Origin: Roseobacter litoralis Och 149
GTDB lineage: Bacteria; Pseudomonadota; Alphaproteobacteria; Rhodobacterales; Rhodobacteraceae
Reading direction: 5' to 3'
DNA length: 64,000 bases
Assembly: GCF_000154785.2 (NCBI RefSeq)
Contig: NC_015730.1
Coordinates: 3,162,001 to 3,226,000, forward strand
Part shown: positions 20,401 through 60,775 of the stretch, one piece after another
Numbering within the stretch: position 1 is the stretch's first letter
How the letters are laid out: every line of letters starts with the position of its first letter
Notes under the pieces: model-generated
The model's database searches: none
Told to the model about the DNA's origin: nothing
The model's input: only the letters and a program-made list of their open reading frames with translations
Translations under genes and position numbers: made by a program

Positions 20401-23400
20401 TCGCTGATGGTGTAGTCGAACGTGTCCGTCGCAGTTGTCCCCGCGCCCAGACCGCTGAAGCTGCCGTTCTGGTCGTAGTCAAACGTTCCATCCGCGTTCA
20501 GCGTCACGATGGCACCGGATGCAAGCGTCGTCGCGACCCCAAGCGCTACTGTCGAGCCGTTCAGCGCGGTCACCGAAAGCGTATCGCCGTCAATATCACT
20601 GTCCGCGCCATTGCCATTGTCGCTCAGCACATTGCCGCTGAGCGCGCCATCGACGCTTACGCCACGGCTGTCATCCACCGCATCCGGTGCATCATTCACG
20701 CCGCTCACGCCAATGCTGACCGTGGCCGTGTCGGTGCCGCCGTTCCCATCACTGATGGTATAGGTGAAGCTGTCCGTCGCCGTCGCGCCAACGCTCAGGA
20801 ACTCGAACGCGCCGTTCGGGTCATAGTCAGCCGTGCCATCGGCATTCACTGTCAGCAAAGCACCCGAGGCGAGTTGGACCTGCGTGCCAACATTTGCGGA
20901 TTGCCCGTCGACCTGCGTCACAACCAGCATGTCCAGCTGATCAATGTCGCTGTCCACCCCGCCGCCGTTATTGGCAAACAGGTCCAGCCCGACGAGTCCG
21001 GCGTCTTCGCTTGTGGTAAAGAAGTCGCCCTGCGCGATGGGTGAATCGTTCAGACCCGAGATATCGACGGTCACCGTTGCGGTATCCGCCCCCCCGTTGC
21101 CGTCAGAGACCGTGTAGTCAAACGTGTCGGTTCCCGACTGGCCCGCAGACAGGGTTTCAAACTGCCCGTTCGGGTCGTAGTCGAACGTGCCGTCACTGTT
21201 CAACGTCAGCAATGCACCGGAGGCCAGCGCCACTTGCACACCGACATCGCCCGCCGCGCCATTGACGGCGCTGACCAGCAGCGTGTCGCCATTTGCATCC
21301 GTGTCATTGGCGAGCACGTCGCCAGTGACCGCCGTGGCCTCATCCGTCGCGGCACTGTCATCAACCGCAACCGGCGCATCTGCATCGCCGTTGATCGTGA
21401 TGGTCGCCGTGGCCGTGTCCGTGCCGCCGTTCCCGTCTGACAATGTGTAGACAAAGCTGTCGGTGGCCGTCTCGCCCGCGTTCAGCGTGTCAAACGCCCC
21501 ATTGGTATCATAGCTGAATGTGCCCGATCCGTTGACGGTCAGCAAAGCGCCGGAGGCCAGCGTGATCTGTTGCCCGATATCCGCCGCCTGCCCGTTGACC
21601 GCACTGACAAAGGGCACGTCAGAGGCATCCGGGTCGCTGTCGGTCCCGTTGCCGTTGTCCGCCGTGAGATTGCCAAACAGGGTGCTGTCTTCGCCGGTCG
21701 TCAGCGCATCGTCATTTGCAACCGGCGCGTCATTTACACCGTTCACGACAATCGACAGGGTTGCGGTCGCACTGCCGCCGTTGCCATCCGCCACCGTGTA
21801 GCTGATCGAATCCGTCGCCGTCTGCCCCACGCTCAGCGTGTTGAACGCCGTGCCAGGATCATAGATGAATTGCCCATCCGAGCCCAATGTGACAGAGCCG
21901 CCGCCGCTGGTTGTGGTGGCGACGCCCACCGCGAGGGTCGATCCCACAACCTCGGTGACCACAAGGGTGTCGTTGGCATCGATATCGGTATCATTGCTCA
22001 GGACATTGCCGGAGGTCGAGCTGTCTTCATCCGTGCTGGCCGTGTCATTTAAGCCAAGCGGCGCATCGTTCACACCCGCAATCGTCAGGGTCACGGTCGC
22101 TGTGTCACTGCCGCCATTGCCATCTTCGATCGTGTATTCAAAGGTCTCGGTCGCGGTATCTCCAACGCTGAGATCTTCGTAGCCGTTGTTCGGGTCAAAG
22201 CTGAACTGACCGTTGCTTTGCAGGGTGACTTGCCCGCCACCCGCCAGTAGCACGGCAACACCCACATTGGCGGCACTGCCGTTCACTTGCGTTACGGTGA
22301 TCGGATCGCCACCGGCATCGCTATCGGCGCCATTGCCGTTATCGGCCAGAACATCGCCATTGACTGTCACCTCTTCATCCGCGGCGATACTGTCGTCGCG
22401 CGCTGTCGGAGGTGGATTGGTCCCGTTGATCGAGATCGTAACCGACGCCGTGTCTGTACCGCCCCGCCCGTCTGACAGCGTATAGTCAAAACCATCGGTG
22501 CCGCCGGTGCCAAAGGCGCCGTTCGGGTCATAATCAAAGGTGCCGTCCGCATTCAACGTCAAGAGCGCGCCAGAGGCCAGAGTGATCTGGTTGCCAACAT
22601 CGCCCGCCTGACCGTTGACTTCGGACACAGTGAGGGTGTTGACCGCGTCCACATCACTGTCCGCGCCGCTGCCATTGTCATTCAGCACATTGCCTGAAAT
22701 CGGGTTGTCGTCATTGGCGGCAAAGGCATCATCAACCGCATCGGGATCATCATTTTCACCCCGTACAAAGAAGTTGATCGTGGCCGTATCCGTGCCGCCT
22801 TCCCCGTCCGAAATCTCGTAAGACAGCGGATCGGTAGCGGTCTGGAAATCCGCGAGGTCTTCGAACTGACCGTTTGGATCATAGTCAAAGCTGCCATCCG
22901 CATTCAGTGTCACCAGCGCCCCCGACGCCAGCGTGATCTGCTGCCCGACGTTTGCCGCAACACCATTCACCGCGCTGACCGTCAGCGCATCCCCGCCCGG
23001 ATCACTGTCGTTGGTCAGGGCGTTGCCTGTCACCGCGGGGCCGTCTTCGCTCACGTTGACAAAGTCATTCGTGGCATTCGGGTTGGCATTCACCACCGTC
23101 ACTTCGAATGTGTCGGTCTCAACCGAATTTGCCTCACCCGCATTGTCATCCACCGTCACCGTGACGGTAAAGGTGCCTTCGCCCGCGAAAACATGGTTCA
23201 GCACAGGAGACAGCGACGACGTGGTGAACGTCGCAACGGGCGAACCATCACCATAATCCACCGTGAAGGAACGCGAGTCCGTATCCGGGTCCGTCAGCGT
23301 CAGGGTGCGGTTCAGGTTTGCGCCTTCACCGACACTCGTATCTGCACCGGCCTCCAGACCGGGGGCATCATTGACCGGATCAACGGTAATATTCGCAGCA

Positions 23401-26400
23401 ACTGGCGGATCTTGCGAGAAGGCAATCCCGTCAGAACCCGTCCACAGGAAGCTATCAAGGCCATTGAAATCCTGATTACCGGTGTAAATCAGATTACCCG
23501 CCAGCAAATCCGCACGTGACACAACCTGACCTGCAATCACCGGCACACCATTCAGCGCCAATGCGCCATTCACCGGGAAGGTTTCGATGCGGATTTCTTC
23601 CAGCGTGTTGCCGTTCGGGTCAACAAAGCCTGCCTCAAAGATCGCGGCATCCAGTACAATCGCCGTATCTTCGTCGCCATTGGCAGATACCGGCGAAATC
23701 GACGGCGCATCATTGCCATAGATCTGGATCAGAACTGACCCGTTCCACGTGATCACAAAACCACCGCCGGGCAGACCGGCAATATCAGGCTGGTTTTGCG
23801 ACCCGCTTGTGGTTGTGTTGACCTGGAACTGGCTGTCCACACGCGCACCACTGGAATCGTATTGCTGCGCAAATACGCCCTGACCTGATCCATCCGTTCC
23901 GGCGTGATCGACCCATGCGATAACGAAATCGCCGTTGTCCAATGCAGCGACCACGGGATCGTTCTGCGTGGACAAACGTTGGTCATTGACGCGGAACTCG
24001 TCCACCAGCGGTGTACCGTCAGCGGCGATGATCGTGGCGTAAATGCCAGTCCCGCTCAGGTCTGCGACGGAGTCGGTCCATGTCACGACGACATTTCCGT
24101 CGCTCAGAACAGTCACTTCGGCGTCCGTCTGGTCGCTCCGCGTCGCGGTATTGACCTGGAACTCTGCACCCACAGGTGCTGCGCTGGCATCATACCGCTG
24201 TGCGAAAATACCAAACCTGTCACCGTCCGCAGACCCGGCACTGGAGAACGACTGCCAAGTAACAAGGAAGCCACCATCGTTCAGTTCAGTGACCGCAGGG
24301 TCCGACTGCGTGCTGACCGTTTCCGTATTTACGACGAACTGGCTGCTGATCGGCGTGCCATCCGCCTGGAAATGCCGCGCGACGATGCCGCTACCATTGC
24401 CATCACCCGCACCGGCTGAATTCGCGGATTCCCAGGTGATCACAAATGTATCGTCACTCAATACGGCAACGTCGGGTCTGAACTGTGTACTGCTCACCAG
24501 ATCGTTTGCAACAAATTCGCTGCCATTCAGCGTCCCGTCAGGGTTAAAGACCTGCGCAACGATGCCGCTGCCACTTCCGTCCAGCGCGTCGTCCACCCAA
24601 ACAACAACCCAGCCACCGTTCGAAAAGGCGGCGATTTCCTGCGACGCCTGATCTTGTGCGGTGGTCGTGTTGATCTGGAACTCATCGCTTGCACCTGAGG
24701 CAAGACCCGTTCCGTCGCGTGCCAGCTTATTGCCGTTCACGTCAAAGCGCTGGCCAAAGATGCCCTCTCGGCTGCCATCCGTCCCAAAGCTCGTCCATGT
24801 GACGATGAAATCGCCACCGGTCCCCGGCAAGGTCACAATTTCCGGGTTATCTTCGCTTCCCGTGTCAGTCGTGTTCACGATCTGCTCCGCACCCACGGGC
24901 TGAGCAGAATCCGGCGTTGGCGTGATGGTGATCGTGACGACCTGCGGCTCTGACGCGCCGCCATCGCCATCGGTCACCTGAATACGCAGATCCCGCGTCG
25001 CCAGCGGATCATCCGAAATGTTGCGATAGGTCAGGTTCTCGACCAACAGTTCCACAATCTCGGCCGTTGCATTGGCATTCAGGCGCAACTCAAACGGTGT
25101 GCCGTCCTGACCGTTCTGAATGATCTGGGCCACTTCTGTCCCATCCACCGAGACCGTCGTACCGGCAATCGTGATCTGGGTCGTCTGACGCAGACCGAGC
25201 TGGTCCTGCGTGAGGTCATCCGGTGCATTGATCTGATTGATCAACGGCGCCGAAGAAATCAGGTTTGAGACAAGGATGGACCCGCCGTCAAAGTCAGCTG
25301 AATCCGCGTCGGAAACGGCCGCAGCCCCATCCGCGTCAATCAGCTGAGGCACACCATTCAGCGTGTTTTCGAGGTATGTGACCTCGCGGTTGATCCCCTC
25401 GACGACCGGGTCGCCGCCGCTGGCGAAATCTGCGGGGTCCCCGATGATGCGATGGAATATGCCGCCACTGCTCCCATCACCAGCCGTGCCGCTGGTTTGC
25501 GAGGTAAAGGACACAACAAGGTTTCCACCCGGCAGTGCTGCGATGGAGGCTTCGTTCTGGGTTGAACTGAATTCCTGATTGACCTGCAATGCGCCATCAA
25601 TCCGGTTTCCTTGCGCGTCGTACTGTTGCAGGAACACGCCCACACCACTGCCGTCTGTGCCATTGTTGTCGGAGTAGGTTATCGCAAACCCGCCTCCGGA
25701 AATCGCAACAACATCAGGGGCGGACTGAGCATTATCCACGACCTCATTGACAAGGAACTCTTCCCCGACCCTGTTCCCAAACCCGTCAAATCGCTGTGCG
25801 TAGATGCCCGCAGATGTGGTAAACCCGAAATCATCCGCCACGTCAGATTCAAATACGACGACATAGCCGCCATCCTCGGTTGCGGCAATCTTTGGCGCAA
25901 ACTGCGAGAAACGCTCGGTCGTGTTGACCTGCACCGGTCCGCCGATCTGGCTGTTGTCCGCTGCATAACGCTGCATGAAAACACCAGTGTCGTTGTCGCC
26001 CGGATTATCCACATTTGTCGCGGTAAAGACGACGACATATGTACCGTCCGACTGTACCGCAACATCCGGTGTCACCGCGCTCGAAGACCCGAGTGGGGCA
26101 ATCACAGTTTCCGTGCCAACCGCACCGCCCTGATCATTGAAGCGCTGCACATAAATTTCATCGATGAACGGGCTGGTCGCATCCCGGCCATTGCGGACAA
26201 GGACAAAATCACCGTTATCAAACGCCGCAAGTGCAGGGGCATCCGCGTCGAAATGCGTCGTGCTCGGCACTGCGATTTCACTGCCAACGGGCTGGCCATT
26301 GGCATCAAACACCTGCATCGCGAGTTCTTCGTCATTGTCGACACCGATCAGGCCGGAGTTATCCTCCCAGGCGACGACAAAACCGCCCGTGGACAGACCA

Positions 26401-29400
26401 ACCACATCGGGATTGTTTTGTGCAAAAGCAGCGTTTATGTTGACCTGAATCTCGCCACCGACCGGTGCACCTGAAGCGTCATACCTTTGGGCAAAAACAC
26501 CGAGATCGTTATCACCGGTAGCATCCTGATTGGCCGAGGACCATACGACAACGTATCCCCCATCAGCAAGCGATGCGACCTTGCTGTCGGATTGATTGTT
26601 GGTCGTGAAAGAGTTCGTTTGGACTTCGTCGCCGACCGGAACCGCGCCGTCGGTTTCTGGCGTGATGTTAATCTGGACCAGCTCGCGCACGTGCCCGCCA
26701 TCACCGTCATTGACCTGAATAGAGACAAGACGCGACGTCTCGGGATCGTCCGAGGAATTCCCATACGTCAAGGACCGGATTGCGTCCTGAACCAGCTGCT
26801 GCGTGGCTGCACCGTTGAGTTGCACAACCAGTTCGGCGCCATCTGCACCATCGGAAGTGATTGTCCCGATGGCAGTCCCGTTCACCGACAGTGTTGACCC
26901 GGCGATGGACACAACACCGCTCGTATCGAACCCGAGGCTGTCTTGCGATGCGTCATCCGGTGCCGCAAACTGCGATTGGATCACATCGTTAACAACCATC
27001 GACACCGTCAATGCGCCGCCATCAAAATCAGATGAATCTGCATCTCCCAAGCCCGCGGCGGTGGCGAACAACTGACCCGAAGCGTTCACATCTGCTTCGT
27101 CCAGCGTGACGCTCGCATCCAATGCAACTAGAACCGGGTTCTCAGAGATCTGAACGTCGCCTGCGTTGGCAAATACCTGCTGGAAAATGCCATTGCTGTT
27201 GCCATCGCCCGCTGTGGCCGACGTAAAGGACGTCCACACAGCGGTAAAACCACCATTGGGCAATGCAACCAGACGCGCTTCACTCTGCGTGGAGCTGAAT
27301 TCGGTGTTCAACTGGAACTCACCGTCGATGCGGCTGCCGTCAGCTGCATAAATTTGGCCAAATACGCCGGTTCCACTTCCATCGTTCCCGCCGTTGTCCG
27401 ACCAGGCCACGACCCAGCCGCCCGTATCAAGCGCGATAATATAGGGATCAAACTGCGCATTCACAGTGGTTTCGTTGACCAGCGTCTCGCCACCGATTGC
27501 CACCCCATTTGCGTCAAAGCGCTGCATCTGGATGCCAGTCGAGCTACCGTCCACACCACTGTCATCATCCCAGACCACAACAAAGGACCCATCTGCGAGG
27601 GCCGCGACCTGCGCGGAGTCCTGATTGCTGAGCGTGGCAGTGTTGACCTGGAATTCCCCGCCAACCGCTGTGCCATTCGCCTCAAAAAGACGCGCAAAAA
27701 CGCCGTTTGCGTTGCCGTCGCCGGCTGTTCCAGAGGCGAAAGACGTCCACGTCACAACGATCCGACCACCGCTCAGAATGGTAACGGACGCATCATTTTG
27801 GGTCGATGAGGTCTCTTCATTGACTTGAACAGAAGCACCAAGGGGCGCGCCAGTATCATCAAACTGCCTCAGGAAAACACCAAAGCCGCTTCCATCCGCA
27901 CTGCTGGCGTCGGAGTAGACAGCCACAATCGTACCGTCTGATTGCGCGGCGAGATCAAGCTGGTCTTGCGTGCTTGCGGTGATGTCGTTCACAAGGAACT
28001 CATCGCCCACCCGCACGCCGGCTTCGTCAAATACCTGCGCGAAAGTGCCCACGCCGACTTCTCCTGCGGGCACTCCGGCAGGATGCGCAGAACTATTATC
28101 ACTCCATCCGACGACAAAACCACCCGTCGGCAGGCCGGTGACTGTGGGATCGCTTTGCGCGAATTCGGTATGCAGGTTGACCTGAAACTCGCCACCGACG
28201 GGATCACCGTTCAGATCATAGCGCTGGCCGAAGATCCCGGAACTGGCATCTTGCACACGGTCCTGATCCGCACTGACCCAGACCACCACATATCCAATCT
28301 GCGCACCGGAGGAATCGTATATCTCTGACGTGGCCGCGTCATTCTGGCTGCCGGTCACAAATGTATTGACCTGCTCTTCGTCGCCCTGCGGCAGAACTGT
28401 GCTGTCTATTTCACTATTTACTATGATATCAATGACTTGAGATCCGGTTGAGCCGCCATCCCCATCCGTCACCTGAACAGCGACCTGGCGTAATTCAAGC
28501 GGATTGTCTGATAGGTTCTGATAGGATAGCTGCGCAATGATCGCTTCCACCGCTTCCGGTGTTGCCGATGCGCTACTGAGCGCAATTTGCAATGGGTTGC
28601 CGCCACTGCCGTCCTGGACAATCGTCCCGATGACGCTGCCGCCAACTGAGACCTGCGTTCCGGAAACGCTGACGCCATTGCCGTCCAGAACACCCAGCAG
28701 GTCTTGCGCAATGCCTTCGCCGGGGCCGCGCAGTTGTTCCTCATTGAGGCTGCTGCCCACGATGCGCTGCACGAGGATGCTGCCACCATCAAAATCGGCG
28801 GAATCCATATCCGTCAGCGACAGCGCACCGTCCTGATTAAGCAATTGAGGGGTCGCATTCGCGGCATTTTCCTCAAAGGTCACTGTTTCCTCGACACCCG
28901 CCAGAACCGGTGCCATCGACCCCGCGGGTGGCGTCGGTTGATCAAACAGCGCTTGGAATACACCGATCCCGGACCCATCCCCGGCTGTGCCAGAGGTCTG
29001 CGAGGCCCAAACAGCAGCCAGTGTGCCATTGCTCAACACGGCGAGGTCGGGCTGGTTTTGCGTCGACGAGATCTCTTCGTTCACCAAAAACGCATTGCCG
29101 TCGAAAGAGCCATCCGCGTTGAAACGCTGCGCGACCACACCAACGCCGGACCCGTCAACACCGCTGGAGTCTGACCATGCGACGGTAAAGCCGCCACCCG
29201 GCGTGCCCACGACAATTGGGTCGGCTTGGGATGAAATCGTTGATGTATTGACCTGGAATTCAGCGCCCTGTGCCACGCCATTACTGTCAAATACCTGACC
29301 GAAGATGCCATCACTGCTCGCGTCAGGGCTTTGCCATACGACGATGAACCCACCGTTTGGCAGTGTTGCACTGGCACCAAGAGCAGCCACATCCGGACGA

Positions 29401-32400
29401 GATTGGCTGCCCGCCGTTGTCGTATTGATTTGCTGCTCATCTGCACCGGCGAGGGTTCCATCAAAGGTCACCAACTGACCGTTTGTATCTACACGCTGTG
29501 CGAAAACGCCGATGGACGACCCATCGCTGCCGCCCTGCTCTTCCCAGACGACCATGACATCGCCATTGTCCAGCAAGGTGACCTGCGCGCGCTGCTGTGC
29601 GCCAGCCGTCGTCGAGTTTATCTGGAACTCGCCGCCTTCCGGGGCACCAGAGGCATCGACAACACGCCCGAACACGCCATTGCTACTGCCATCACCTGCG
29701 GTGCCGGAGGCCGTTGACGTCCAGACAACCATGAACCGGCCAGCACCGAGATCAACCGCTTCTGGTTGGTTCTGAGTCGATGAAAACTCTTCGTTCACCT
29801 GAAAGGCAGAACCGATCTCAGTGCCGTCATTCTGATAAACCTGGGCAAAGACGCCCTGCCCGCTGCCATCCCGCCCGGTGTTATCATTCCAAAGCAGCAC
29901 GAACGTCCCATTGGACAGACCCTCGGCCCGCGGCTGGATCTGATCACCGACAGCGATATCGTTCACCTGGAACTCAACGCCGACCTGCTGGCCTTGTTCA
30001 TTGAACCTTTGTGCAAAGATTCCGCGATTACCCGAGGCGGGGTTGTCTTGCTGCGTCGAATTCCAGACGACAATGTAGCCACCATCGCTCAATTCCGCGA
30101 TGCGCGGGGCCTGCTGCGTGCTGGCGGTGAAGGAATTCACCTGCGATTCGACGCCGAGGCCGGTGTCAATCGTCACCAGATCGCGGATAAGTTCTTGCTC
30201 CATCCGGGTGAAACCGGTCTGGTTCCCGGCCTGATTGCCGATTGTGAGGTCAAAGCCGAGGCGGTTTGTACTGCTCAACCCGCCGGTGATCCCAAATGTC
30301 AGCGCTTCGGCGAGGGCCTCGATCCCGGCTTCGGATGCATTTGCATTCAGATCGACCCGCAAGGTCGCGCCGTTAACACCGTTCGACGTCGCATTGATCG
30401 TACCGATGGCGGTCCCTTCATAGGACACATTTGTTCCGTCAAATCCGATCTGTCCCGCGCCAGTCCCTTGGTTTTGAACAGATATCTGTTTGTTTGCCGA
30501 AGAGTTGAACACTTCCGAAATCTGCAAGAAGCCACCGTCAAAGCTCGTGCCTGCCAGATCGTCAAAGTCGATATTTGCATCAATGAGTTGTGGGGCATTA
30601 AACAGATCAGCCTCGCTGCGCGCTGGCGTGTCATCAAGTTGTGTCGCTTCGTTTTCGGGATCGGCAAAGTCATCCAGTGTAAGCCCGGTGGCTGTCGAGG
30701 CCCCTGCCCCAATCCGCACAAAGATAGAATCCGGCTCAGTCTGACCGCCATTCCCATCCGTCACGGTGAACCCAATGCCACGGTTGGTGAACTGCAGGTT
30801 CAGGGCGGTATCGGTAGAACCATAGGCCAAATGCTCCATGATCACCTTGACCGCTGCCGCATCCGCCGCCGCGTTGAAATCGATCCGCAAGGGTTCCCCA
30901 TTGACCCCGTTTTGCGCGGCATCAATGGTCCCGATTGCCGTGCCATTGATACTGATCGTGCTGCCCGAAATTGTGACGGCGGCATCGGTTGCGATGCTCA
31001 GCTGATCGCTCGCGGTCCTGCCAGCGGTGTAATAGACCTCAAGTGTGCCACCGTTGAAATTGGCGTTGTCAGGGTCAGAAAATTCGATGCCATCATCCAG
31101 AATTTGCGCGCCACCCACAATGTCATCTGCAAACAGCTGCACATCCCGCTCAACGTCTTCAAGCACAGGAGAGTTGTTCGCGCTCGGTGCAGATTCAAAT
31201 GTACGCAACGAGACGCCATAGCTGGATCCATCGCCCGAATTGCCGCTGGTGAAGGAGGACCAGACCGCCGCAAAGCCATCGTTGAAGGACGTGACGGCGG
31301 GTTGGAATTGTTGGGATGATGTCTCAACGTTCAGTTGGATTTCACCGTCTATGCGGTCACCATTGGCGTCAAAACGCTGCCCGAACACACCGTCGCTGCT
31401 GCCATCCTGATTGCTGCCCGCGGTCCAGCTGACCAGAAAGCCCCCATCACTCAGGGCCGTGATATCCGCATCACTTTCGCTGTTGAGCCGGTCCGTGTTG
31501 ACGCGGAACTCGCCGCCAACGGCAACGCCATTGACGTCATAGCGTTGTGCAAAAACACCTCCAGCGGACCCGTCCAGCAGGTCATCAGTCCAGACCACGA
31601 CGAAACCGCCACCGTCCAAACCAATCACCGCCGGTTGCGACTGATCATCATTCGTTGTTGTGTTGACCTGAAACTGCGCGCCGGTTGCAGCACCGTTTGC
31701 GTCAAAGCGCTGCGCAAAAACACCGTTGCGATCCCCGTCCCCTTCGGCCCCGCTCGCGAAGGACGTAAAGACGACCACATGGCCTGCATTGTTGCCAACC
31801 CCGTCCACTAGCGTTGCGACATCTGGTTGCGACTGATTGCCAGTCACGGTCGCCGTGTTCACCGTGATCTCGGCACCGACAGCAACCCCATTTGCGTCAA
31901 ATCGCTGGCTGAGGATCGCGTCCTGACTGCCATCGCCGTCATCCGAAACATAGGTGGCGACAAATCCGCCATCGGCGAAGGCTGCGACCGAAGGTGCGAA
32001 CTGCGATAGCGCCACCGCTGTATTTACGACAATTTCAGAACCTTGCTCAACACCATTCGCGTCAAAGCGCTGCGCGATGATCCCTTGATCAAAGTCGCCG
32101 GGATTATCCTGATTGGTCGATTGCCACGCAACGACGAAGCCGCCGTCGGCGGTCGCCGTAACGCTGGGCGCACTTTGCGCACTTAGAGTTACATCATTGA
32201 CGAGGAACTCCGGACCTGAGGGAATTCCGTTCGCATCATATAGCTGGCCGAACACGCCCGTGTTGAAATCACTGATGTTATCCTGGTTGGTCGACTGCCA
32301 GACAACGATGATACCACCACCGGTCAGTTCAGCGACCTGCGCATTGTCCTGATTGCTTTCTGTATGCGCGTTCACACCGCGCTCGACGCTCGCGACAAGT

Positions 32401-35400
32401 GTGGAATCCACATCCGGAACCACTGTTACTTCTATAAGCTGCGTGGGTGTGCTTTGCCCGTCGCCATCGGTGAGGTCGACACTCAGGCGTCGGGCTGCCA
32501 CCGGCGCATCCGAACCATTGCCGTATGCAAGATTGCCCAGCAAAGCCTCAACGGCCTCAGCGGTTGCGTTTGTATTCAACGTGATTGAAAAAACCGGCCC
32601 GCTGTTTGTGATCGTACCAACCGTAACGCCGTCTACCGTAACTGTGTCACCCGTGTTCAGGCCAGAGAACTGAACATCGCCATTTCCGACATCCCCGGCC
32701 ACGAGACCAAGCTGGTCCTGCGTTTCATCATCACCCGGGTTGAGTTGTTCGATATCGTCAAAAGTCTGCGCAACCGCGAGCGTTAGCACGCCCCCGTCAA
32801 AGTCATTTGAATCCGCATCCCCAAACGCAACAGTCGCATCCGCGTCCAAACGTTGCAGGCCTGCGTTGACATCCGCTTCGTCAAAGACGGCGGTGTCTGA
32901 GAACCCTTGTATTACTGGCGCGGCACCGGGTGTGAAATCTGCCGGGTTGCCATAGACCTGCTGAAAGACACCGTTGCTGCTGCCATCGCCCGAGGTGCCG
33001 GAGGTCACCGATGAGAAGGTGGCCACAAAATTGCCACCCGGCAAGGCCGCCAATTTAGGTGAGAACTGGCTGCTGACAAAGGTTTCCTGATTGAGCAGGA
33101 ACTCCCCGTCGAGACGTTCGCCAGTCGCCGAATAGCGCTGTGCGAGCACCGCATCGCCGCTTGCATCCGCATTCCCTGCAAAATTACGCCACGCGATGAC
33201 GAACGTGCCATCGTCCAGCCCGATAACATTGGCTTCGCTTTGGGTGCTGGAAAAACTGTCATTGACTATGAAAACGTCACCTGCGGGCGCACCGGAAGCG
33301 TCATACCTTTGCGCAGCGATACCCTGACCGGACCCATCAAGCCCGCTCGTATCCGTCCATGCAATGACAAAACCACCATCCGCCGTGGCTGCAATATCCG
33401 CCTCGGACGTGCTGCTTGATGTAATGCCAACCTGAGTTTCTGCGACTGCTTCGGTGCCATCGGGATTGAACACCCGCACGAAGGCCGTGTTACCGGAGAA
33501 ATAGGTTACGGCAATGCTGCCATCGGTCAGGACGGCCACATCTGCCGTGCCCTGATTGCCGACGGATGTCGTATTCGCGACCAGCTCGCTCCCGACGGGC
33601 GTGCCGTCTGTCGCAAAGCGTTGCATCAGAACGGCATCCGCAGAGCCGTCCCCACTGTCGGAAGTGTAGACAACGACATACCCGCCATTTGCAAAGCCCG
33701 GTGTGCCGGTCGGGATAGTGGCAACGGCGGGGTCAAACTGCGTGGATATCACCGTCGTGTTGACAACTGTTTCGCCTCCAACAGGCGTGCCGTCTGCCGC
33801 ATAGCGTTGCGAAATAATCCCGAGGTCGCTGCTTTCCGGCACATCCACGAAGCCGGATTCCCAGACGACAACCCAACCGCCGTCTTCCAGCCCGGTGACG
33901 ACCGGATCTGCCTGATTGCCGGAGGTTAAGGTGTTGACCTGAAATTCACCGCCAATGCGCGCGCCTTCGGAATTATACCGCTGGCCAAAGACACCTTCGC
34001 CACTTTCGTCCTGACCGTCGGAGTCCCAGACAACAACCCAGCCGCCGTCCGTCAGCGCGGCCACTTCCTGCTGGTCCTGCGCATCGGCGACAAAGCTGTT
34101 CACCTGCTCTTCGGGTCCAACCGGCACCGGCGCACCTGCCTCGGCGACTTGGTTGATGCGGATTTCCAGCGAACGCGGCTGGGTCAGCCCGCCATCGCCA
34201 TCCTCGATCAACAGCGAATACGTGCGGGAATCGCGCGGATTATCAGAATCCGTCTGATACGACAGAGCATTCAGCAACGATTGAACACGGTCCGGCGTAG
34301 CACCTGCAAGAAGGTCCAAAACCAAATCAGCGCCGTTCAAACCGTCGGAAGATACAGTTGCAACTGCCACACCATCGACCCGAAGCGTCGCGCCGGTTTG
34401 CGTAACTGTGCCGCCAACAGCGACAAACACCGAATCCTGTGACAGATCATCGGGTGCATTGAAGCGGTCCGCGAGCGGCTCAGTCACAACGCGGCTCAGA
34501 CGGACGACCCCACCCTCAAGATCGCTGGAATCCGCGTCGGTCAAAGACAGGCCACCCGTCAAAACAAGCTGGCTGCCGACATTTGCAACATCTTCGTCGA
34601 TATCGATGATCAGCGGCAATCCTTGAAGCACAGGAGCCGCAGATTGCGATATCTCGGCCGGATCCCCGATGATTTGCTGGAAAACACCGCGGCTGTCGCC
34701 GTCGCCAGCCGTACCCGAAGTTTCCGACGTCCATTGAACGACATAATTTCCATTGGGCAAGGCGGCCAATGAAATTTCGTTTTGCGTCGACAGGACTTCG
34801 GTATTGACCCGCGTCTCACTGTCCAGCCGCGTCCCATCCGCGTCAAACACCTGCACGAACACATCCTGACCATTGCCCGGCGCGGGCACGGATGTATCCG
34901 TCCAGCCGATGACAAAGCCACCTGTATCCAACGCGATGATATCAGGGAACGTCTGGTCCCCGATCACGGTATCGTTCACGCGGGTTTCGGCACCGATTGC
35001 GACCCCTGCATCGCTGTAGCGCTGATAGTAAATCCCGCCAGAACTGGAATCCTGACCCTCAGAGCGCCAGACAACGACGAAATCACCATTGTCCAACGTT
35101 GCAACTTTGGGCACCGACTGCGCGTTGTTCACAAAGGAGTTGACCTGAAATTCCGCGCCTTCCGGGCTGCCAGAGCTATCGAAAATACGCGCTGATAGGG
35201 ATGATGAGGACCCATCCCCATTGGCAACGTCATTCTCCTCCCAAGCCACAACAAAGCGACCGCCGCTGAGGGCCGAAACCGCAGCGGTATCCTGTGCGCC
35301 GATTGTCTGTTCATTGATCGCAATTTCGCCGCCGACGCGCGCGCCTGCAGCATTGAACAACTGGCCAAAGACGCCGTTTGAATTGCCGTCCCCGGCCGTA

Positions 35401-37613
35401 CTGGAATTCACCGAGGTCCAGGTGACGACATAGCCGCCATTGCTCAGCCCTGTGACCTGTGGCTGGAACTGGCTGCTTGAGGTTTCGGTCTCGACCTGGA
35501 CCTCGCTGGCAATCAGTGCACCGGACGCATCATAGCGATTCAGGCGCACACCGGTGATCGTGTCGTCATCCCAGACAACAACCCATCCGCCGTCATTGAG
35601 CCCGGCAACATCCGCGTCAAACTGCGACGAGGTAACCGTCGTGTTCACCTGAAATTCCGGGCCAACTGCGCCACCCGCCGCATCATAACGCTGCGCAAAA
35701 ACGCCCAAGTCATTGTCGCCCGAATTGTCCTGGTTCTGCGACGTCCAGACGGAGATATAACCGCCATCCGCCAGACCCGAAATCGCGGAATCCGACTGGC
35801 TTGAAACCGTGACTGTATTGACCTGCCGCTCGGTTCCGACAAACCCATCGGTGTCGGATTCCGGTGTCACCTCGACACTGATCAGGACGGGATCAGATGT
35901 CGCGCCATCGCCATCTTCGACCAACAGCTCAAGCGTCGTCTGCGCGCGCGGGTCGTCCGAGGCAATGCCAAAGGTCAAATGTTCCAACAGGACCTCGACT
36001 GCTGCGGCATCAGCTGCAGTGTTCAGGTCAATGACAAAGGCTGTACCATCAGCGCCGTCGCTGCTGATGCTGCCGATAAGTGTCCCACCGACAGAAACGT
36101 TCGCGCCGCTGATCGCGACAGCCCCTGTGCCGTCCAATCCCAATTGCAACTGTGCATCGGCATCCTGATCGGAAAAACCGTCTTCGGACAAAGACTGCCC
36201 GATGGAGGACAGGACAATCCGCCCCCCCGCAAAATTCGTTGAATCCGCATCCGAAAACGCGACCGCGCCATCGACATCCAACCGTTGTGGCGCTGCGTTT
36301 ACATCCGTTTCCGAGAACGTCCGCGTTACGGAAAAGGCTTCGACCAGAGGCCGTGCAGAGGGGGCCGAGAACGTCAGTTCATCCCCAAAAATACGCTGGA
36401 ACACACCCTGCACTGACCCGTCGCCCGCATCACCTGATGTGTCAGAGGTCCAGACGGACACGAAATCGCCATTGGCAAGGGCTGAGACATCGCCCCGCTG
36501 CTGAGAGCCGCTTATCTCTTCGTTCAACATGATCTCACCCGACACGGCGACGCCATCGACGTCGAAACGTCGGGCAAAAACGCCGTCACCGCTGCCGTCG
36601 CCAGCCGTGCCGCTGGTTGCGGATGTCCATGTGACCACAAAACCGCCGTCGCTTGTTGCGGTGATCTCCGGATCGTACTGTGAAGAGGATGTCTCAACAT
36701 TGACTTGGAATTCGCTGCCTACGGCTGTACCGTCCCCCTCATAGACCTGCCCGAAGATACCAAAGCCACTGCCATCTGCCGCGCTGGTGTCTTCCCAAAC
36801 AATCACAAACCGGCCACTGTCCAACCCTGAGACGGCAGAGTCCTGCTGCGCGCCCGCCGTTGTCGTATTGACCAGAAACTCGCTGCCAATCGCGGTGCCG
36901 TTCGGTTCATAAAGCTGTGCGAAAACGCCTTGACTTGATCCATCGCCCGCTGTGCCAGACGCAGGACTGGTCCAGGTCACGATAATACCGCCAGCGGCCA
37001 GCCCATTAGCGCCAGCGCTTGGCGCAATAGCAGCAATCGAGACCTCCCCCTGATTTCCCGAAATTTCCGAATTGACCTGCACGTCATCACCAAGAGGCGC
37101 GCCCGCAGCGTCATAGAAACGCACGCGGATTCCATCGCTGCTGCCATCCCCGGAATCATCCGTGAAGGCGACGGCAAAGCCGCCACCGGGCACGCCTGCG
37201 ACCTCAGGATCAAACTGCGTGACAGATATGTTCACCGCATTGACCTGAAACTCGCCCCCCGCTTTGGACCCATCCGCCGCAAAGCGCTGTCCGTAGATGC
37301 CAAAGTCAAAGGAGCCCGGCACATCCTGATTGCGGGATTCCCAGACGATCACGAACCCGCCGTCATCCGTCGCGGCAATCGACGGGTCGCGCTGAATTTC
37401 ATTGGCTGTCTCATTCACGAGGGTCTGCGCGCCAATACGTTCGCCCTGCGCTGAGAACCTTTGCGCAAATATACCGTCCTGATCTCCGTCCTGACCCGTC
37501 GACACCCAAACAATCACATAGCTGCCATCAGCCAGTGTCTCGACCCGCGCTTCGTTTTGATTTCCGACGGTAAAGCTGTTGACAAGTTGTTCTGGCGTCA
37601 AAGGAGAATTCAT
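17484..37613 (-). CDS. Giant multi-beta-propeller, cadherin-like repeat surface protein (about 6,709 aa)
   Basis: One uninterrupted frame of 20.1 kb. The start ATG 37613 has GAGGG just upstream; a start 14 codons earlier lacks one. From the N-terminus (approximate residues): 1-4633 is eight blocks of seven repeats of about 57 residues, with core DGGFVVVW...DGS..GVFAQRYDA.G..VG.EFQVN. Blocks are separated by cadherin-like linkers containing DADS.DF.GG and VTDGDGG. Residues 4634-4850 hold a cadherin-like and a PKD-like domain. About 13 NDAPVA.DD...DYDPNG..SDGNGGTDTATV modules follow, then three C-terminal repeats and a unique tail ending DELVFIDAY. Asp/Gly/Asn-rich loops suggest calcium binding. 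There is no signal peptide and there are no GGxGxDx(L/I)x nonapeptides. Inferred role: secreted or surface adhesin or biofilm matrix protein; the route of secretion is not visible here. Confidence 0.85.
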   Translation of the reverse strand: MNSPLTPEQLVNSFTVGNQNEARVETLADGSYVIVWVSTGQDGDQDGIFAQRFSAQGERIGAQTLVNETANEIQRDPSIAATDDGGFVIVWESRNQDVPGSFDFGIYGQRFAADGSKAGGEFQVNAVNISVTQFDPEVAGVPGGGFAVAFTDDSGDGSSDGIRVRFYDAAGAPLGDDVQVNSEISGNQGEVSIAAIAPSAGANGLAAGGIIVTWTSPASGTAGDGSSQGVFAQLYEPNGTAIGSEFLVNTTTAGAQQDSAVSGLDSGRFVIVWEDTSAADGSGFGIFGQVYEGDGTAVGSEFQVNVETSSSQYDPEITATSDGGFVVTWTSATSGTAGDGSGDGVFARRFDVDGVAVSGEIMLNEEISGSQQRGDVSALANGDFVSVWTSDTSGDAGDGSVQGVFQRIFGDELTFSAPSARPLVEAFSVTRTFSETDVNAAPQRLDVDGAVAFSDADSTNFAGGRIVLSSIGQSLSEDGFSDQDADAQLQLGLDGTGAVAISGANVSVGGTLIGSISSDGADGTAFVIDLNTAADAAAVEVLLEHLTFGIASDDPRAQTTLELLVEDGDGATSDPVLISVEVTPESDTDGFVGTERQVNTVTVSSQSDSAISGLADGGYISVWTSQNQDNSGDNDLGVFAQRYDAAGGAVGPEFQVNTTVTSSQFDADVAGLNDGGWVVVWDDDTITGVRLNRYDASGALIASEVQVETETSSSQFQPQVTGLSNGGYVVTWTSVNSSTAGDGNSNGVFGQLFNAAGARVGGEIAINEQTIGAQDTAAVSALSGGRFVVAWEENDVANGDGSSSSLSARIFDSSGSPEGAEFQVNSFVNNAQSVPKVATLDNGDFVVVWRSEGQDSSSGGIYYQRYSDAGVAIGAETRVNDTVIGDQTFPDIIALDTGGFVIGWTDTSVPAPGNGQDVFVQVFDADGTRLDSETRVNTEVLSTQNEISLAALPNGNYVVQWTSETSGTAGDGDSRGVFQQIIGDPAEISQSAAPVLQGLPLIIDIDEDVANVGSQLVLTGGLSLTDADSSDLEGGVVRLSRVVTEPLADRFNAPDDLSQDSVFVAVGGTVTQTGATLRVDGVAVATVSSDGLNGADLVLDLLAGATPDRVQSLLNALSYQTDSDNPRDSRTYSLLIEDGDGGLTQPRSLEIRINQVAEAGAPVPVGPEEQVNSFVADAQDQQEVAALTDGGWVVVWDSDGQDESGEGVFGQRYNSEGARIGGEFQVNTLTSGNQADPVVTGLEDGGWVVVWESGFVDVPESSDLGIISQRYAADGTPVGGETVVNTTVISTQFDPAVATIPTGTPGFANGGYVVVYTSDSGDGSADAVLMQRFATDGTPVGSELVANTTSVGNQGTADVAVLTDGSIAVTYFSGNTAFVRVFNPDGTEAVAETQVGITSSSTSEADIAATADGGFVIAWTDTSGLDGSGQGIAAQRYDASGAPAGDVFIVNDSFSSTQSEANVIGLDDGTFVIAWRNFAGNADASGDAVLAQRYSATGERLDGEFLLNQETFVSSQFSPKLAALPGGNFVATFSSVTSGTSGDGSSNGVFQQVYGNPADFTPGAAPVIQGFSDTAVFDEADVNAGLQRLDADATVAFGDADSNDFDGGVLTLAVAQTFDDIEQLNPGDDETQDQLGLVAGDVGNGDVQFSGLNTGDTVTVDGVTVGTITNSGPVFSITLNTNATAEAVEALLGNLAYGNGSDAPVAARRLSVDLTDGDGQSTPTQLIEVTVVPDVDSTLVASVERGVNAHTESNQDNAQVAELTGGGIIVVWQSTNQDNISDFNTGVFGQLYDANGIPSGPEFLVNDVTLSAQSAPSVTATADGGFVVAWQSTNQDNPGDFDQGIIAQRFDANGVEQGSEIVVNTAVALSQFAPSVAAFADGGFVATYVSDDGDGSQDAILSQRFDANGVAVGAEITVNTATVTGNQSQPDVATLVDGVGNNAGHVVVFTSFASGAEGDGDRNGVFAQRFDANGAATGAQFQVNTTTNDDQSQPAVIGLDGGGFVVVWTDDLLDGSAGGVFAQRYDVNGVAVGGEFRVNTDRLNSESDADITALSDGGFLVSWTAGSNQDGSSDGVFGQRFDANGDRIDGEIQLNVETSSQQFQPAVTSFNDGFAAVWSSFTSGNSGDGSSYGVSLRTFESAPSANNSPVLEDVERDVQLFADDIVGGAQILDDGIEFSDPDNANFNGGTLEVYYTAGRTASDQLSIATDAAVTISGSTISINGTAIGTIDAAQNGVNGEPLRIDFNAAADAAAVKVIMEHLAYGSTDTALNLQFTNRGIGFTVTDGNGGQTEPDSIFVRIGAGASTATGLTLDDFADPENEATQLDDTPARSEADLFNAPQLIDANIDFDDLAGTSFDGGFLQISEVFNSSANKQISVQNQGTGAGQIGFDGTNVSYEGTAIGTINATSNGVNGATLRVDLNANASEAGIEALAEALTFGITGGLSSTNRLGFDLTIGNQAGNQTGFTRMEQELIRDLVTIDTGLGVESQVNSFTASTQQAPRIAELSDGGYIVVWNSTQQDNPASGNRGIFAQRFNEQGQQVGVEFQVNDIAVGDQIQPRAEGLSNGTFVLLWNDNTGRDGSGQGVFAQVYQNDGTEIGSAFQVNEEFSSTQNQPEAVDLGAGRFMVVWTSTASGTAGDGSSNGVFGRVVDASGAPEGGEFQINSTTAGAQQRAQVTLLDNGDVMVVWEEQGGSDGSSIGVFAQRVDTNGQLVTFDGTLAGADEQQINTTTAGSQSRPDVAALGASATLPNGGFIVVWQSPDASSDGIFGQVFDSNGVAQGAEFQVNTSTISSQADPIVVGTPGGGFTVAWSDSSGVDGSGVGVVAQRFNADGSFDGNAFLVNEEISSTQNQPDLAVLSNGTLAAVWASQTSGTAGDGSGIGVFQALFDQPTPPAGSMAPVLAGVEETVTFEENAANATPQLLNQDGALSLTDMDSADFDGGSILVQRIVGSSLNEEQLRGPGEGIAQDLLGVLDGNGVSVSGTQVSVGGSVIGTIVQDGSGGNPLQIALSSASATPEAVEAIIAQLSYQNLSDNPLELRQVAVQVTDGDGGSTGSQVIDIIVNSEIDSTVLPQGDEEQVNTFVTGSQNDAATSEIYDSSGAQIGYVVVWVSADQDRVQDASSGIFGQRYDLNGDPVGGEFQVNLHTEFAQSDPTVTGLPTGGFVVGWSDNSSAHPAGVPAGEVGVGTFAQVFDEAGVRVGDEFLVNDITASTQDQLDLAAQSDGTIVAVYSDASSADGSGFGVFLRQFDDTGAPLGASVQVNEETSSTQNDASVTILSGGRIVVTWTSFASGTAGDGNANGVFARLFEANGTAVGGEFQVNTATLSNQDSAQVAALADGSFVVVWDDDSGVDGSSTGIQMQRFDANGVAIGGETLVNETTVNAQFDPYIIALDTGGWVVAWSDNGGNDGSGTGVFGQIYAADGSRIDGEFQLNTEFSSTQSEARLVALPNGGFTAVWTSFTSATAGDGNSNGIFQQVFANAGDVQISENPVLVALDASVTLDEADVNASGQLFATAAGLGDADSSDFDGGALTVSMVVNDVIQSQFAAPDDASQDSLGFDTSGVVSIAGSTLSVNGTAIGTITSDGADGAELVVQLNGAATQQLVQDAIRSLTYGNSSDDPETSRLVSIQVNDGDGGHVRELVQINITPETDGAVPVGDEVQTNSFTTNNQSDSKVASLADGGYVVVWSSANQDATGDNDLGVFAQRYDASGAPVGGEIQVNINAAFAQNNPDVVGLSTGGFVVAWEDNSGLIGVDNDEELAMQVFDANGQPVGSEIAVPSTTHFDADAPALAAFDNGDFVLVRNGRDATSPFIDEIYVQRFNDQGGAVGTETVIAPLGSSSAVTPDVAVQSDGTYVVVFTATNVDNPGDNDTGVFMQRYAADNSQIGGPVQVNTTERFSQFAPKIAATEDGGYVVVFESDVADDFGFTTSAGIYAQRFDGFGNRVGEEFLVNEVVDNAQSAPDVVAISGGGFAITYSDNNGTDGSGVGVFLQQYDAQGNRIDGALQVNQEFSSTQNEASIAALPGGNLVVSFTSQTSGTAGDGSSGGIFHRIIGDPADFASGGDPVVEGINREVTYLENTLNGVPQLIDADGAAAVSDADSADFDGGSILVSNLISSAPLINQINAPDDLTQDQLGLRQTTQITIAGTTVSVDGTEVAQIIQNGQDGTPFELRLNANATAEIVELLVENLTYRNISDDPLATRDLRIQVTDGDGGASEPQVVTITITPTPDSAQPVGAEQIVNTTDTGSEDNPEIVTLPGTGGDFIVTWTSFGTDGSREGIFGQRFDVNGNKLARDGTGLASGASDEFQINTTTAQDQASQEIAAFSNGGWVVVWVDDALDGSGSGIVAQVFNPDGTLNGSEFVANDLVSSTQFRPDVAVLSDDTFVITWESANSAGAGDGNGSGIVARHFQADGTPISSQFVVNTETVSTQSDPAVTELNDGGFLVTWQSFSSAGSADGDRFGIFAQRYDASAAPVGAEFQVNTATRSDQTDAEVTVLSDGNVVVTWTDSVADLSGTGIYATIIAADGTPLVDEFRVNDQRLSTQNDPVVAALDNGDFVIAWVDHAGTDGSGQGVFAQQYDSSGARVDSQFQVNTTTSGSQNQPDIAGLPGGGFVITWNGSVLIQIYGNDAPSISPVSANGDEDTAIVLDAAIFEAGFVDPNGNTLEEIRIETFPVNGALALNGVPVIAGQVVSRADLLAGNLIYTGNQDFNGLDSFLWTGSDGIAFSQDPPVAANITVDPVNDAPGLEAGADTSVGEGANLNRTLTLTDPDTDSRSFTVDYGDGSPVATFTTSSLSPVLNHVFAGEGTFTVTVTVDDNAGEANSVETDTFEVTVVNANPNATNDFVNVSEDGPAVTGNALTNDSDPGGDALTVSAVNGVAANVGQQITLASGALVTLNADGSFDYDPNGQFEDLADFQTATDPLSYEISDGEGGTDTATINFFVRGENDDPDAVDDAFAANDDNPISGNVLNDNGSGADSDVDAVNTLTVSEVNGQAGDVGNQITLASGALLTLNADGTFDYDPNGAFGTGGTDGFDYTLSDGRGGTDTASVTISINGTNPPPTARDDSIAADEEVTVNGDVLADNGNGADSDAGGDPITVTQVNGSAANVGVAVLLAGGGQVTLQSNGQFSFDPNNGYEDLSVGDTATETFEYTIEDGNGGSDTATVTLTIAGVNDAPLGLNDTASTDEDSSTSGNVLSNDTDIDANDTLVVTEVVGSTLAVGVATTTSGGGSVTLGSDGQFIYDPGTAFNTLSVGQTATDSISYTVADGNGGSATATLSIVVNGVNDAPVANDDALTTGEDSTLFGNLTADNGNGTDSDPDASDVPFVSAVNGQAADIGQQITLASGALLTVNGSGTFSYDTNGAFDTLNAGETATDSFVYTLSDGNGGTDTATATITINGDADAPVAVDDSAATDEATAVTGDVLANDTDANGDTLLVSAVNGAAGDVGVQVALASGALLTLNSDGTFDYDPNGQFETLSAGQSGTDTFDYTVSDGNGGADTATVTVDISGLNDSPIAQGDFFTTSEDAGLVGLDLFANNGGGVDSDIDQLDMLVVTQVDGQSANVGTQVQLASGALLTVNADGTADYDPNGAFEFLSVGATATDSFTYTISDGNGGTDTATVSIGVSGVNDAPDAVDDSRGVSVDGALSGNVLSDNGNGADSDIDGDTLSVTALNGSTVALGVATTLASGAIVTLNADGTFDYDQNGSFSGLGAGTTATDTFDYTISDGNDGTDTATVTITIGGSNLPPVAIDDAFDTNENTAFTTGSVLDNDNDPNTDPLSVTGFDDTATVGIVTNNGDGTFDYNPNGQFETLGVGETAVDTFTYTISDGNGGVDSATVNITINGVNDAPVASDDALTVTEDTSGSVVATANDTDIDGDDVEITSVDDLATIGAVLVEADNDTITYDTNGQFDTLAQGETATDSFGYTVTDGNGGTATATVDVTITGVNDGPVAQDDTVTTDEDTGIIGGSVLADNGNGVDSDVDNGAVLSIAAVNGQAGDVGSQVTLASGALLTLNADGTFDYDPNGAFEALALGDVGSDSFTYTLTDEFGATDDATVTVSIDGVNDAPVAQDDSFATDEDTGVSGNILSDNGSGADSDVDAGDTRVVSAINGTAASVGVQITLASGALLTVGADGALDYDPNGAFEFLSVGATATDSFTYTISDGNGGTDTATVSIGVSGVNDAPDAVDDSRGVSVDGALSGNVLSDNGNGADSDIDGDTLSVTALNGTAAALGVATTLASGAIVTLNADGTFDYDQNGSFSGLGAGTTATDTFDYTISDGNGGTDTATVTITISPEGGAVTAGNDAFVVSEGELTAAGRSLFRLAAIDDRTDLLENDTGANKIISVNGAPIKPGILFAGDNGGQFRVFEGGVLDFQNRGDLVAPGDTTGFTYTVSDGNGGTDTATVTLTIGPDIAADDTFDITEGELSAEGRSLFRLGAINDQTDLLENDIGADKIISVNGEPIKPGILFAGDNGGQFRVYEGGVVDFQNRGDFVAAGESTGFTYTVSDGNGGTDTARVTLNVGPDIADDDVFMVSAFDLDDAGRSLFRLGAINDQTDLLENDFGADEIIFVNGEPIEPGILFAGDNGGEFRVYPGGVVDFQNRGDLVDPGDTTGFTYTVSDGNGGTDTARVTLEVGLPVVTELYMYHSSSSMSAVNIVVDFFTIDDLTDPYTEYSSGLTVPNLQHDELVFIDAY
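17655..18675 (-). repeat. Three C-terminal tandem repeats of about 113 residues
   Basis: Copies at about 18675-18340, 18340-17995 and 17995-17655 share GRSLFRL..I.D.TDLLEND.GA..II.VNG.PI.PGILFAGDNGG.FRV..GGV.DFQNRGD and a final SDGNGGTDTA strand. They differ in sequence from the cadherin-like array upstream but end with the same strand, so they are probably a variant of the same fold. Confidence 0.8.
18697..19163 (-). repeat. Near-identical 467-bp internal duplication, copy A
   Basis: Matches 20362-20828 at a fixed offset of 1,665 bp (555 codons, in frame) with about 13 mismatches that I could count, seven of them clustered in one short patch. It encodes one cadherin-like module (DSRGVSVDGALSGNVLSD) and its flanks. 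Other modules in the array differ far more at the DNA level. Confidence 0.85.
20362..20828 (-). repeat. Near-identical 467-bp internal duplication, copy B
   Basis: Second copy of the segment at 18697-19163, same orientation and in frame. The match stops abruptly at TCATAGTC (20821-20828), after which the flanking modules diverge. Four ordinary modules lie between the copies. Confidence 0.85.
23715..37610 (-). repeat. Eight 7-repeat propeller blocks (56 repeats) with cadherin-like linkers
   Basis: Counted by eye from the translation, with approximate DNA limits: block 1 37610-36390, block 2 35830-34670, block 3 34110-32950, block 4 32385-31190, block 5 30155-28950, block 6 28385-27180, block 7 26635-25445, block 8 24895-23715. 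Each has seven repeats starting at a (Q/L/V)(V/L/I)N strand. The last repeat usually carries SGTAGDGSS.GVFQ and then a short exit such as IIGDPADF. Seven blades per block is the classic count for a closed beta-propeller. Linkers are about 180 residues, except between blocks 4 and 5, where two linker modules occur in tandem. Confidence 0.75.
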
Positions 37614-43686: not shown

Positions 43687-44682
43687 TTGGAACAAGTACC
43701 GCGCGTTTCCATCATAATGCCGGCGCATAATGTTGAGGGCTTCATTGACGAAGCAATCGGATCGATTGTTGCCCAGTCTTATGCCTCCTTCGAACTCATC
43801 ATTGTCGATGACGCATCCACCGACGGCACAGCCGACATTCTTGCGGCGCGGCAAGACAGGTGGTCTCTGGAGCCCCAGCAACTCAGAGTTTTGAGGCAAC
43901 CGAACGGGGGTGCCTCCTCGGCACGCAACCGCGGTGTCGCTGAGGCAAAAGGCGAGCTTGTGGGCTTCATTGACGCGGATGATCGTTGGTCGCCCCAGAC
44001 CCTGACTCAGCTCGTGGGCGCTTTGGATGCGTTTCCCGAAAGTGATATCGCATGCCCCCTTTACCGGCGGATCGACGAGGACGGGCGCGAGGTCAACTAT
44101 CTGGGGGAGCCGGTCCATCTCACGCATACTCAGCAGAGTGAGGCAAAGTTCTTCGATGCAGGTGAGATGCTCATTGCAACGCCCGCCGAAAGCGCAACCG
44201 GCGTGCTTGTCCGTCGGGAGGCATTTGCGGCTGGCGGTGGTTTTGATACGGCCCTGAAATCAAACAATGATGTGGATTGCTGGCTGCGTATTCTGTGGGA
44301 GCGCAAATCCACGCTTGTGCAATGCCCACAGGCGCTCGTGGACTATCGCATCAGGTCGGCACAAATCACATCGAACGTGCGACGCATGCAGAAAGGTCAC
44401 GAGCAATTTCTCGGCAATCACCAACCATTGTTGCGCGAAATCGGTGTGTTTGCGCGAAGACGGCATTTTGGTCTGGTGCGCGCATACTGGTCATTGCTTG
44501 CAGCCCGGCAGGGCGATGTGTGGCTGGCATTCAGATATTGGATCAGCGCGCTTTTCTATTCGCCGCGTCTCGCATTGCCCGCCACACTGGGCAGCAGCGC
44601 AGCATTCGCCATCGCCAAGGCGGTTCTGCCATCTGCGATATGGCAATGGGTGAGCAAACTGCGCAAGCGTTTCCGAAGGTGA
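43687..44682 (+). CDS. Family 2 glycosyltransferase
   Basis: The 331-residue protein has a GT-A fold: N-terminal VSIIMPAHNVEGFIDEAIGS, nucleotide-binding IIVDDASTDGTADI, NGGASSARN and the metal-binding DADD in LVGFIDADDRWSP. The C-terminal third is basic with a possible membrane-associated helix. It transfers a sugar from a nucleotide donor to a surface polysaccharide or similar acceptor. TTG start (43687), with CGGAG about 10 nt upstream. It converges with the flippase gene. Confidence 0.85.
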   Translation: MEQVPRVSIIMPAHNVEGFIDEAIGSIVAQSYASFELIIVDDASTDGTADILAARQDRWSLEPQQLRVLRQPNGGASSARNRGVAEAKGELVGFIDADDRWSPQTLTQLVGALDAFPESDIACPLYRRIDEDGREVNYLGEPVHLTHTQQSEAKFFDAGEMLIATPAESATGVLVRREAFAAGGGFDTALKSNNDVDCWLRILWERKSTLVQCPQALVDYRIRSAQITSNVRRMQKGHEQFLGNHQPLLREIGVFARRRHFGLVRAYWSLLAARQGDVWLAFRYWISALFYSPRLALPATLGSSAAFAIAKAVLPSAIWQWVSKLRKRFRR

Positions 44683-44715
44683 TCCATAGTGGTCCTGTCC
44701 CTTCATCCCGGGCGC

Positions 44716-46140: not shown

Positions 46141-46273
46141 AGGACTTGACGAACGGTCAATGAGGATGGCGCGCACCTTCGTTCAGCGGACTGAGCAGCC
46201 ACCGGGATAACAAGGCGCAAGGCACGTTTTACGCAATCGCGGCGGTATGTAATTCCCCTGCCTGACAATGCCA

Positions 46274-47335: not shown

Positions 47336-47558
47336 CTTATCCACGCCTATGCACCGAACCAAGCCGAGCTTATCAATCTAGATCGCCGCATTGGAAAGGG
47401 AAAAATGCGCCTCCGGACATCACCCCACTATAATCCGCTCGATTTTTTAAAAATTCTTAAAGGACCGGGGGTTTTATGCTGATCCGGCGTTTTTGGTGCG
47501 CGCTGCTACTTTGATCAGGCTTTGCGCCACAACCCCAGCGACGAACGCAAATCCAATC

Positions 47559-54535: not shown

Positions 54536-54545
54536 GTGTGTCCTC

Positions 54546-56810: not shown

Positions 56811-56856
56811 TTCAGATCCTTACCAGTTTAGTTGCACATCAGGACGGCAGTGTCGG

Positions 56857-56891: not shown

Positions 56892-56909
56892 CGGTTTGCG
56901 CAGACGGTG

Positions 56910-58685
<1,776 letters not shown>

Positions 58686-60752: not shown

Positions 60753-60775
60753 TCCTGATCTGAAAGGACAAATAC

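Follow-up and report, generated by a model that had tools for sequence, protein, structure and literature searches.

Propellers and Bap-like megaproteins are already known, and so is the presence of one propeller within a Bap-like adhesin. The velcro arrangement is described as the closure of beta-propellers (PMC6805158), CylK is described as an enzyme in which the propeller and an N-terminal calcium beta-roll jointly make up the active site (PMC8916777), and BapP of Pseudoalteromonas tunicata indicates that a propeller-bearing Bap-like protein can be required for biofilm, its homologs having been found by its authors only in Pseudoalteromonas (PMC12153261). The protein discussed here is encoded in a stretch of 64,000 nucleotides from Roseobacter litoralis Och 149 (NC_015730.1, positions 3,162,001 to 3,226,000 of the forward strand), the whole of which is called the window. 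It is a giant protein for which eight blocks of seven repeat units, a velcro pattern, a predicted propeller fold, predicted beta-sandwich linkers and an adhesin-type stalk are well supported.

The giant protein and its predicted propellers

The gene lies on the minus strand at 17484..37613 of the window. Its open reading frame (ORF, 17484-37655) has 6723 open codons and is listed from a TTG further upstream (37655), but translation probably begins with the ATG at 37613, which follows a GAGGG by 4 bases and gives 6709 residues. The protein computed from this sequence has a mass of 683 kDa, an isoelectric point of 4.05, no cysteine and 12 lysines, and is laid out as an N-terminal propeller and linker part of 4,640 residues and a C-terminal stalk part of about 2,060 residues. 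A preliminary description had placed one protein at 23715..37610; the repeat units do span about 37583 to 23736, but the same gene continues to 17484 with about 2,060 residues more.

An iterated profile finds 56 copies of a 57-58-residue unit in the ORF, arranged as 7+7+7+7+7+7+7+7, so that the 56 repeats of about 57 residues in eight groups of seven, previously read from the translation, are recovered with exactly seven in 8/8 blocks. Unit starts are spaced by 51-68 residues within a block and by 231-397 residues from the last unit to the first unit of the next block, and if seven breaks were placed at random among 56 units, the split into all sevens would be 1 of 202,927,725 compositions. 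No credible Pfam or NCBIfam model for the unit was found among the scans of the protein. By profile and alignment, the seven units of each propeller, all on the minus strand, occupy 36372..37613 (propeller 1), 34656..35858 (propeller 2), 32931..34139 (propeller 3), 31167..32408 (propeller 4), 28926..30173 (propeller 5, for which an AlphaFold2 (AF2) model was also made), 27156..28409 (propeller 6), 25422..26651 (propeller 7) and 23694..24914 (propeller 8).

Between them on the same strand lie the linker domains, which are assigned by alignment: linker domain 1 (35856..36386, a predicted beta-sandwich by its alignment to the modelled linker domain), 2 (34137..34667), 3 (32406..32945), 5 (28407..28937), 6 (26649..27170, the modelled one, with a predicted local distance difference test value of 89) and 7 (24912..25442). 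Linkers of about 180 residues had been described; this holds for six of them, of about 175-180 residues, but linker 4 between blocks 4 and 5 (30171..31193) has about 340 residues and consists of two linker-domain copies by profile spacing and alignment. The C-terminal part (17487..23693, minus strand) contains a PKD domain and about 16 Big_9/cadherin-like domains, as the Pfam scan gives PF17963 matches in 16 stretches and a PF18911 match downstream of block 8. In addition, NF045619, the model of BapA/Bap/LapF large adhesins, reaches 390.4 bits there (cut-off 180) and has no match in the N-terminal 4,640 residues, NF012211 also matches in the NCBIfam scan, and by eye three related repeats of about 110 residues, followed by an acidic-hydrophobic tail, DELVFIDAY, close the chain.

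Four strands are predicted in the unit, namely QxxPxVAxL (A), GGFVVVW (B), GVFAQRYD (C) and VGxEFQVN (D). In all eight blocks of the window, the profile match to unit 7 breaks off early, at position 29-53 of 58, and a segment that resembles strand D, the one missing from unit 7 (VGxExQ or a similar sequence), precedes unit 1 of the same block. The variant blade formerly noted at the end of each group is, then, a last unit that differs, but it differs really by the early end of its match. The pattern was also followed in a first sample of relatives, which comprised all arrays of 3 or more units and later trained the repeat model: in 65 of the 69 seven-unit arrays the last unit reaches no further than position 52 of 57, compared with 38 of the 462 units in positions 1-6 when all 77 seven-unit arrays are taken, and 56 of the 69 arrays have a Glu at a distance of exactly three residues ahead of the first VN, against a background of 4%. 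An early-ending unit 7 together with a D-like segment before unit 1 is the velcro arrangement described for propellers, so closure of the rings by velcro strand exchange is predicted from these sequence patterns and from the model.

Structure prediction of one block, which the preliminary description had put forward as a check, agrees with this in part. The AF2 model of block 5 has full-length structural matches to propellers, and its residues 7-414 align to the propeller of CylK (7RON) with 13% identity. Four full strands were assigned by DSSP in only two of the seven blades (blades 1 and 2), blades 3-7 having three full strands and short bridges at the position of the outer strand. Many of the best Foldseek matches of the model are enzymes, as is CylK, so the propellers may be catalytic. 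No CylK chain was among the profile matches in sequence searches.

Relatives, numbers of blades and evolution

Matches to the whole-block profile were obtained in 13 of 59 genomes close to that of the window, 27 of 295 genomes of the family at E 1e-40, 33 of 299 genomes of the phylum and 20 of 194 genomes of the phylum of a Gomphosphaeria metagenome-assembled genome (MAG), the centre genome itself being included each time. Five loci were retrieved, from Fluviibacterium aquatile, an uncultured Rhodobacteraceae bacterium, a Sulfuritalea MAG, a Pseudomonadota MAG and a Gomphosphaeria aponina MAG. The repeat also occurs on plasmids (40 of 72,556 records match, Pantoea accounting for 19); individual records among the matches listed have as many as 22 places, perhaps in further multi-propeller proteins. 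Phage records gave no match to the repeat profile.

The arrays of relatives were counted in part of the matching loci from the phylum, family and Gomphosphaeria-phylum searches. Eight blocks of seven are also present in genomes G011 and G004 and in Fluviibacterium aquatile (L059), the first block of the last being read as eight in another scan through an extra weak match. G609 has a frame of 8506 residues with eight blocks, the eighth being divided into 4 and 3 units by a retrieval boundary; G016 has six blocks, the first consisting of 3+3 units around a weak seventh (10.5 bits, reached by 0 of 100 shuffles); and G023 is a single-propeller relative with a frame of 404 residues. Linkerless tandem sets of 14 (L044, G014), 21 (L181, G558) and 35 units (L107, G172) occur as well, and a seven-unit super-period in the unit spacing of L107, L181 and L044 goes with whole propellers that were apparently duplicated head to tail. 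Two other loci may be mentioned: L100 (G150:C1, 1-20000), from a genome of the same phylum, has a frame of 26,117 residues round one propeller match, the stretch showing one seven-unit array, and L061:8738-12574, of the Sulfuritalea MAG, has a propeller, an M10-type metallopeptidase domain and RTX repeats in one frame.

Seven units were found in 77 of 117 array entries of the first sample, in 46 of 56 when a strict filter was applied (every unit at least 30 bits, spacing at most 80, not at the ORF edge) and in 21 of 30 when the five window-like loci were also left out. In a later sample, taken after the repeat model had been fixed, exactly seven units were counted in 27 of 35 array entries and 21 in one, the genomes having been chosen by a match to the seven-unit profile, which may favour seven; counts of 4 and 3 in L179 and L180 are two sides of a retrieval boundary. 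The expectation that homologs keep multiples of seven is therefore borne out mostly, with the sets of 14, 21 and 35, but not throughout. The remaining entries of the first sample, which speak against a fixed number, are 21 of six, 9 of three, 5 of four, 3 of five, 1 of eight and 1 of fourteen units. Four of the sixes belong to L097, where the next segment has only 0.9-4.0 bits (0.017-0.127 of 300 shuffles reach the score), and five belong to L107, where each is followed by a further unit of 10-18 bits (0 of 300 shuffles) and a looser scan reads 35. For each of the other twelve, no more than 0.02 of 300 shuffles attain the score of one of the flanks, two flanks having been tried without correction and the scores going down to 1.5 bits. 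L102 (G313:C14) has eight units of about 62 residues, the lowest at 28-29 bits, with a velcro pattern of its own, and may represent an eight-bladed form within the family. Among the entries with three to five units are L145, L049 and three of the four relatives encoded in the window's own genome; the array of L103 ends at a contig end. In the later sample, the exceptions are L193 (4), L194 (13), L198 (6) and one ORF of L182 (3+3).

Among the window units, mean identity is 0.421 for pairs that share a position in different blocks (196 pairs) and 0.375 for pairs that do not (1176 pairs). The difference is most marked at blades 1, 7 and 6, and blades 2, 3 and 4 show little or none of it; a greater likeness of same-position units is as expected from the duplication of whole propellers. 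Moreover, the closest block to window block i is block i of G011, G004 and Fluviibacterium, 8/8 in each, and the ratio of nonsynonymous to synonymous substitution rates (dN/dS) is 0.03-0.12 in every computable segment of the propellers, linkers and stalk, two segments against G004 being saturated. Because of this pairing across genomes and the low dN/dS, the eight discs appear to be old and separately kept, and not a homogenised spacer.

Probable export, proposed function and alternatives

The giant protein is probably exported, and we infer that a type I system exports it by way of its C-terminus. The case is based on its acidity and lack of cysteine, the type of its stalk, its acidic-hydrophobic C-terminal tail, which in our view resembles type I signals, RTX in relatives encoded by the same genome, RTX-like motifs seen by eye at the end of the G016 protein, and exporter ATPases over cut-off elsewhere in the genome. 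The own-genome relatives are four further proteins of 915-1014 residues (L051-L054, at G000:C3 3239707, 3834545, 3662961 and 1138051), which have diverged unit arrays (3-6 units found) and RTX calcium repeats. This case is weakened in three respects: the Pfam scan gave no RTX nonapeptide match (PF00353) in the giant protein; a scan of 27 window ORFs on either side of it revealed no type I exporter gene; and no N-terminal retention module was recognized in the sequence, the first residues (MNSPLTPEQLVNSF) being the start of propeller 1. A LapG-like peptidase, of the kind that cuts such modules in LapA-type adhesins, is present elsewhere in the genome.

We consider it probable that the gene product is an exported acidic megaprotein with eight closed seven-bladed propellers, sandwich linkers and a Bap/LapF-type stalk, which would adhere by its disc faces. 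The N-terminal 4,640 residues would be eight closed beta-propellers joined by Ig/cadherin-like beta-sandwich linkers, and the C-terminal 2,060 residues or so would be a Big_9/cadherin-type stalk like those of the Bap/LapF adhesins. The outer strand of blade 7 would come from the segment just before blade 1, so the chain would enter and leave a disc at the same blade and each disc would hang sideways on the string. After type I export via the C-terminus, the chain may fold outside the cell with the aid of calcium, and the eight individually conserved disc faces may bind glycans or matrix and so mediate adhesion to particles, algae or sister cells.

Among the other readings, it is unlikely that the propellers are passive extenders, bulky beads which lengthen or stiffen the stalk while another part alone does the binding. 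The alternation of propellers with beta-sandwich linkers, the long Big_9 stalk and the varying number of propellers among relatives (eight or six) would suit such beads, but pure spacers are expected to be interchangeable, whereas all eight propellers are orthologous by position across genera and under purifying selection, and the frame of G023 leaves no room for a stalk. A multi-catalytic degrader, the propellers being enzymes such as polysaccharide lyases or hydrolases, is quite improbable; rhamnose-glucuronate lyase, sialidases and glycoside hydrolases are among the best Foldseek matches, and CylK too acts as an enzyme, but identity in those matches is only 8-16%, no Pfam enzyme family is over cut-off in the propeller region, and eight copies per chain are unusual for an enzyme.

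Repeats of regular length can in general form solenoids; an open solenoid or superhelix with incidental sevens is nevertheless very hard to reconcile with the velcro pattern, the AF2 model, the full-length propeller matches and the sevens across phyla, all of which support closed seven-bladed propellers, as the preliminary description had thought. Repetitive genes are also prone to misassembly, but an assembly or duplication artefact in one genome deserves next to no credence, as the independent genomes G011, G004 and Fluviibacterium aquatile share the eight blocks in the same order and four assemblies would be needed.

A more speculative extension of the adhesin with eight closed propellers is possible, though doubtful: it would be a member of an unnamed exported-propeller family of Proteobacteria and Cyanobacteria, here an eight-headed array with different conserved faces and ligands, whose rings snap shut during C-terminus-first export and help to pull the chain. 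In such an exit the velcro strand of each disc would emerge last, each ring would close only when complete, and the 683-kDa chain could be drawn out with the help of eight successive ring locks. Through the link with RTX in relatives, an ordered closure of the rings in the course of export can be put to the test. A widespread repeat absent from Pfam and NCBIfam thus gains a predicted fold, which suggests that closed discs, instead of only beta-sandwiches, can build giant adhesin-like proteins; and the preference for seven across distant bacteria, with sets of 14, 21 and 35 and one eight-unit exception, offers a natural test of propeller blade number.

The neighbours of the gene include a TRAP transporter, an RND efflux pair, an aldo-keto reductase and others. 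An ATP-binding cassette (ABC) ATPase adjoining an FtsX-like permease (window 884-2451), which lies 15 kb away from where the giant gene ends, looks like the FtsEX pair and not like a type I exporter. Upstream of the giant gene are two family 2 glycosyltransferases and a polysaccharide flippase-like gene (43687-47362), and three cytochrome d1 proteins with radical SAM, AsnC-type siroheme decarboxylase-like, COX1-like and NorQ-like genes (49159-63878) look like a nitrite/nitric oxide reduction cluster.

Comparison with known systems

The giant protein differs from each of the systems it resembles. The CylK/BrtB alkylating enzymes (7RON) have one propeller, the CylK type being marked by a calcium site at each blade junction, and are biosynthetic (PMC8916777), whereas the giant protein has eight propellers and is adhesin-like; its N-terminus begins with the segment before unit 1 and not with a CylK-type calcium beta-roll. 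BapP is likewise Bap-like, with an N-terminal propeller and cadherin-like and Big_9 beta-sandwich domains, and in neither protein was a LapA-type retention module found; unlike the giant protein, however, BapP has a single five-bladed propeller in an N-terminal domain of 226 residues (1600 residues in total), a Sec signal peptide and adjoining exporter genes (PMC12153261). The BapA/Bap/LapF adhesins (NF045619) and other tandem-95/Big_9 proteins share the C-terminal 2,060 residues or so, over cut-off, but type I exporter genes adjoin their genes and none was seen among the window ORFs scanned near the giant gene. The PLL/PHL lectins of Photorhabdus (5C9L, 5MXE) are small, with chains of 336-354 residues and a sequence identity of 11-13%. 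WRAP of Nostoc punctiforme similarly has many blades in one chain (14), but these are WD40 blades described as recently amplified, and it is not adhesin-like (PMC6805158). In the open-licence literature searched (PMC7901474 included), no description of the repeat or of an eight-propeller protein was found. As far as this literature was searched, therefore, what is new is an unnamed propeller family with a strong preference for seven, and the layout of eight propellers in one chain.
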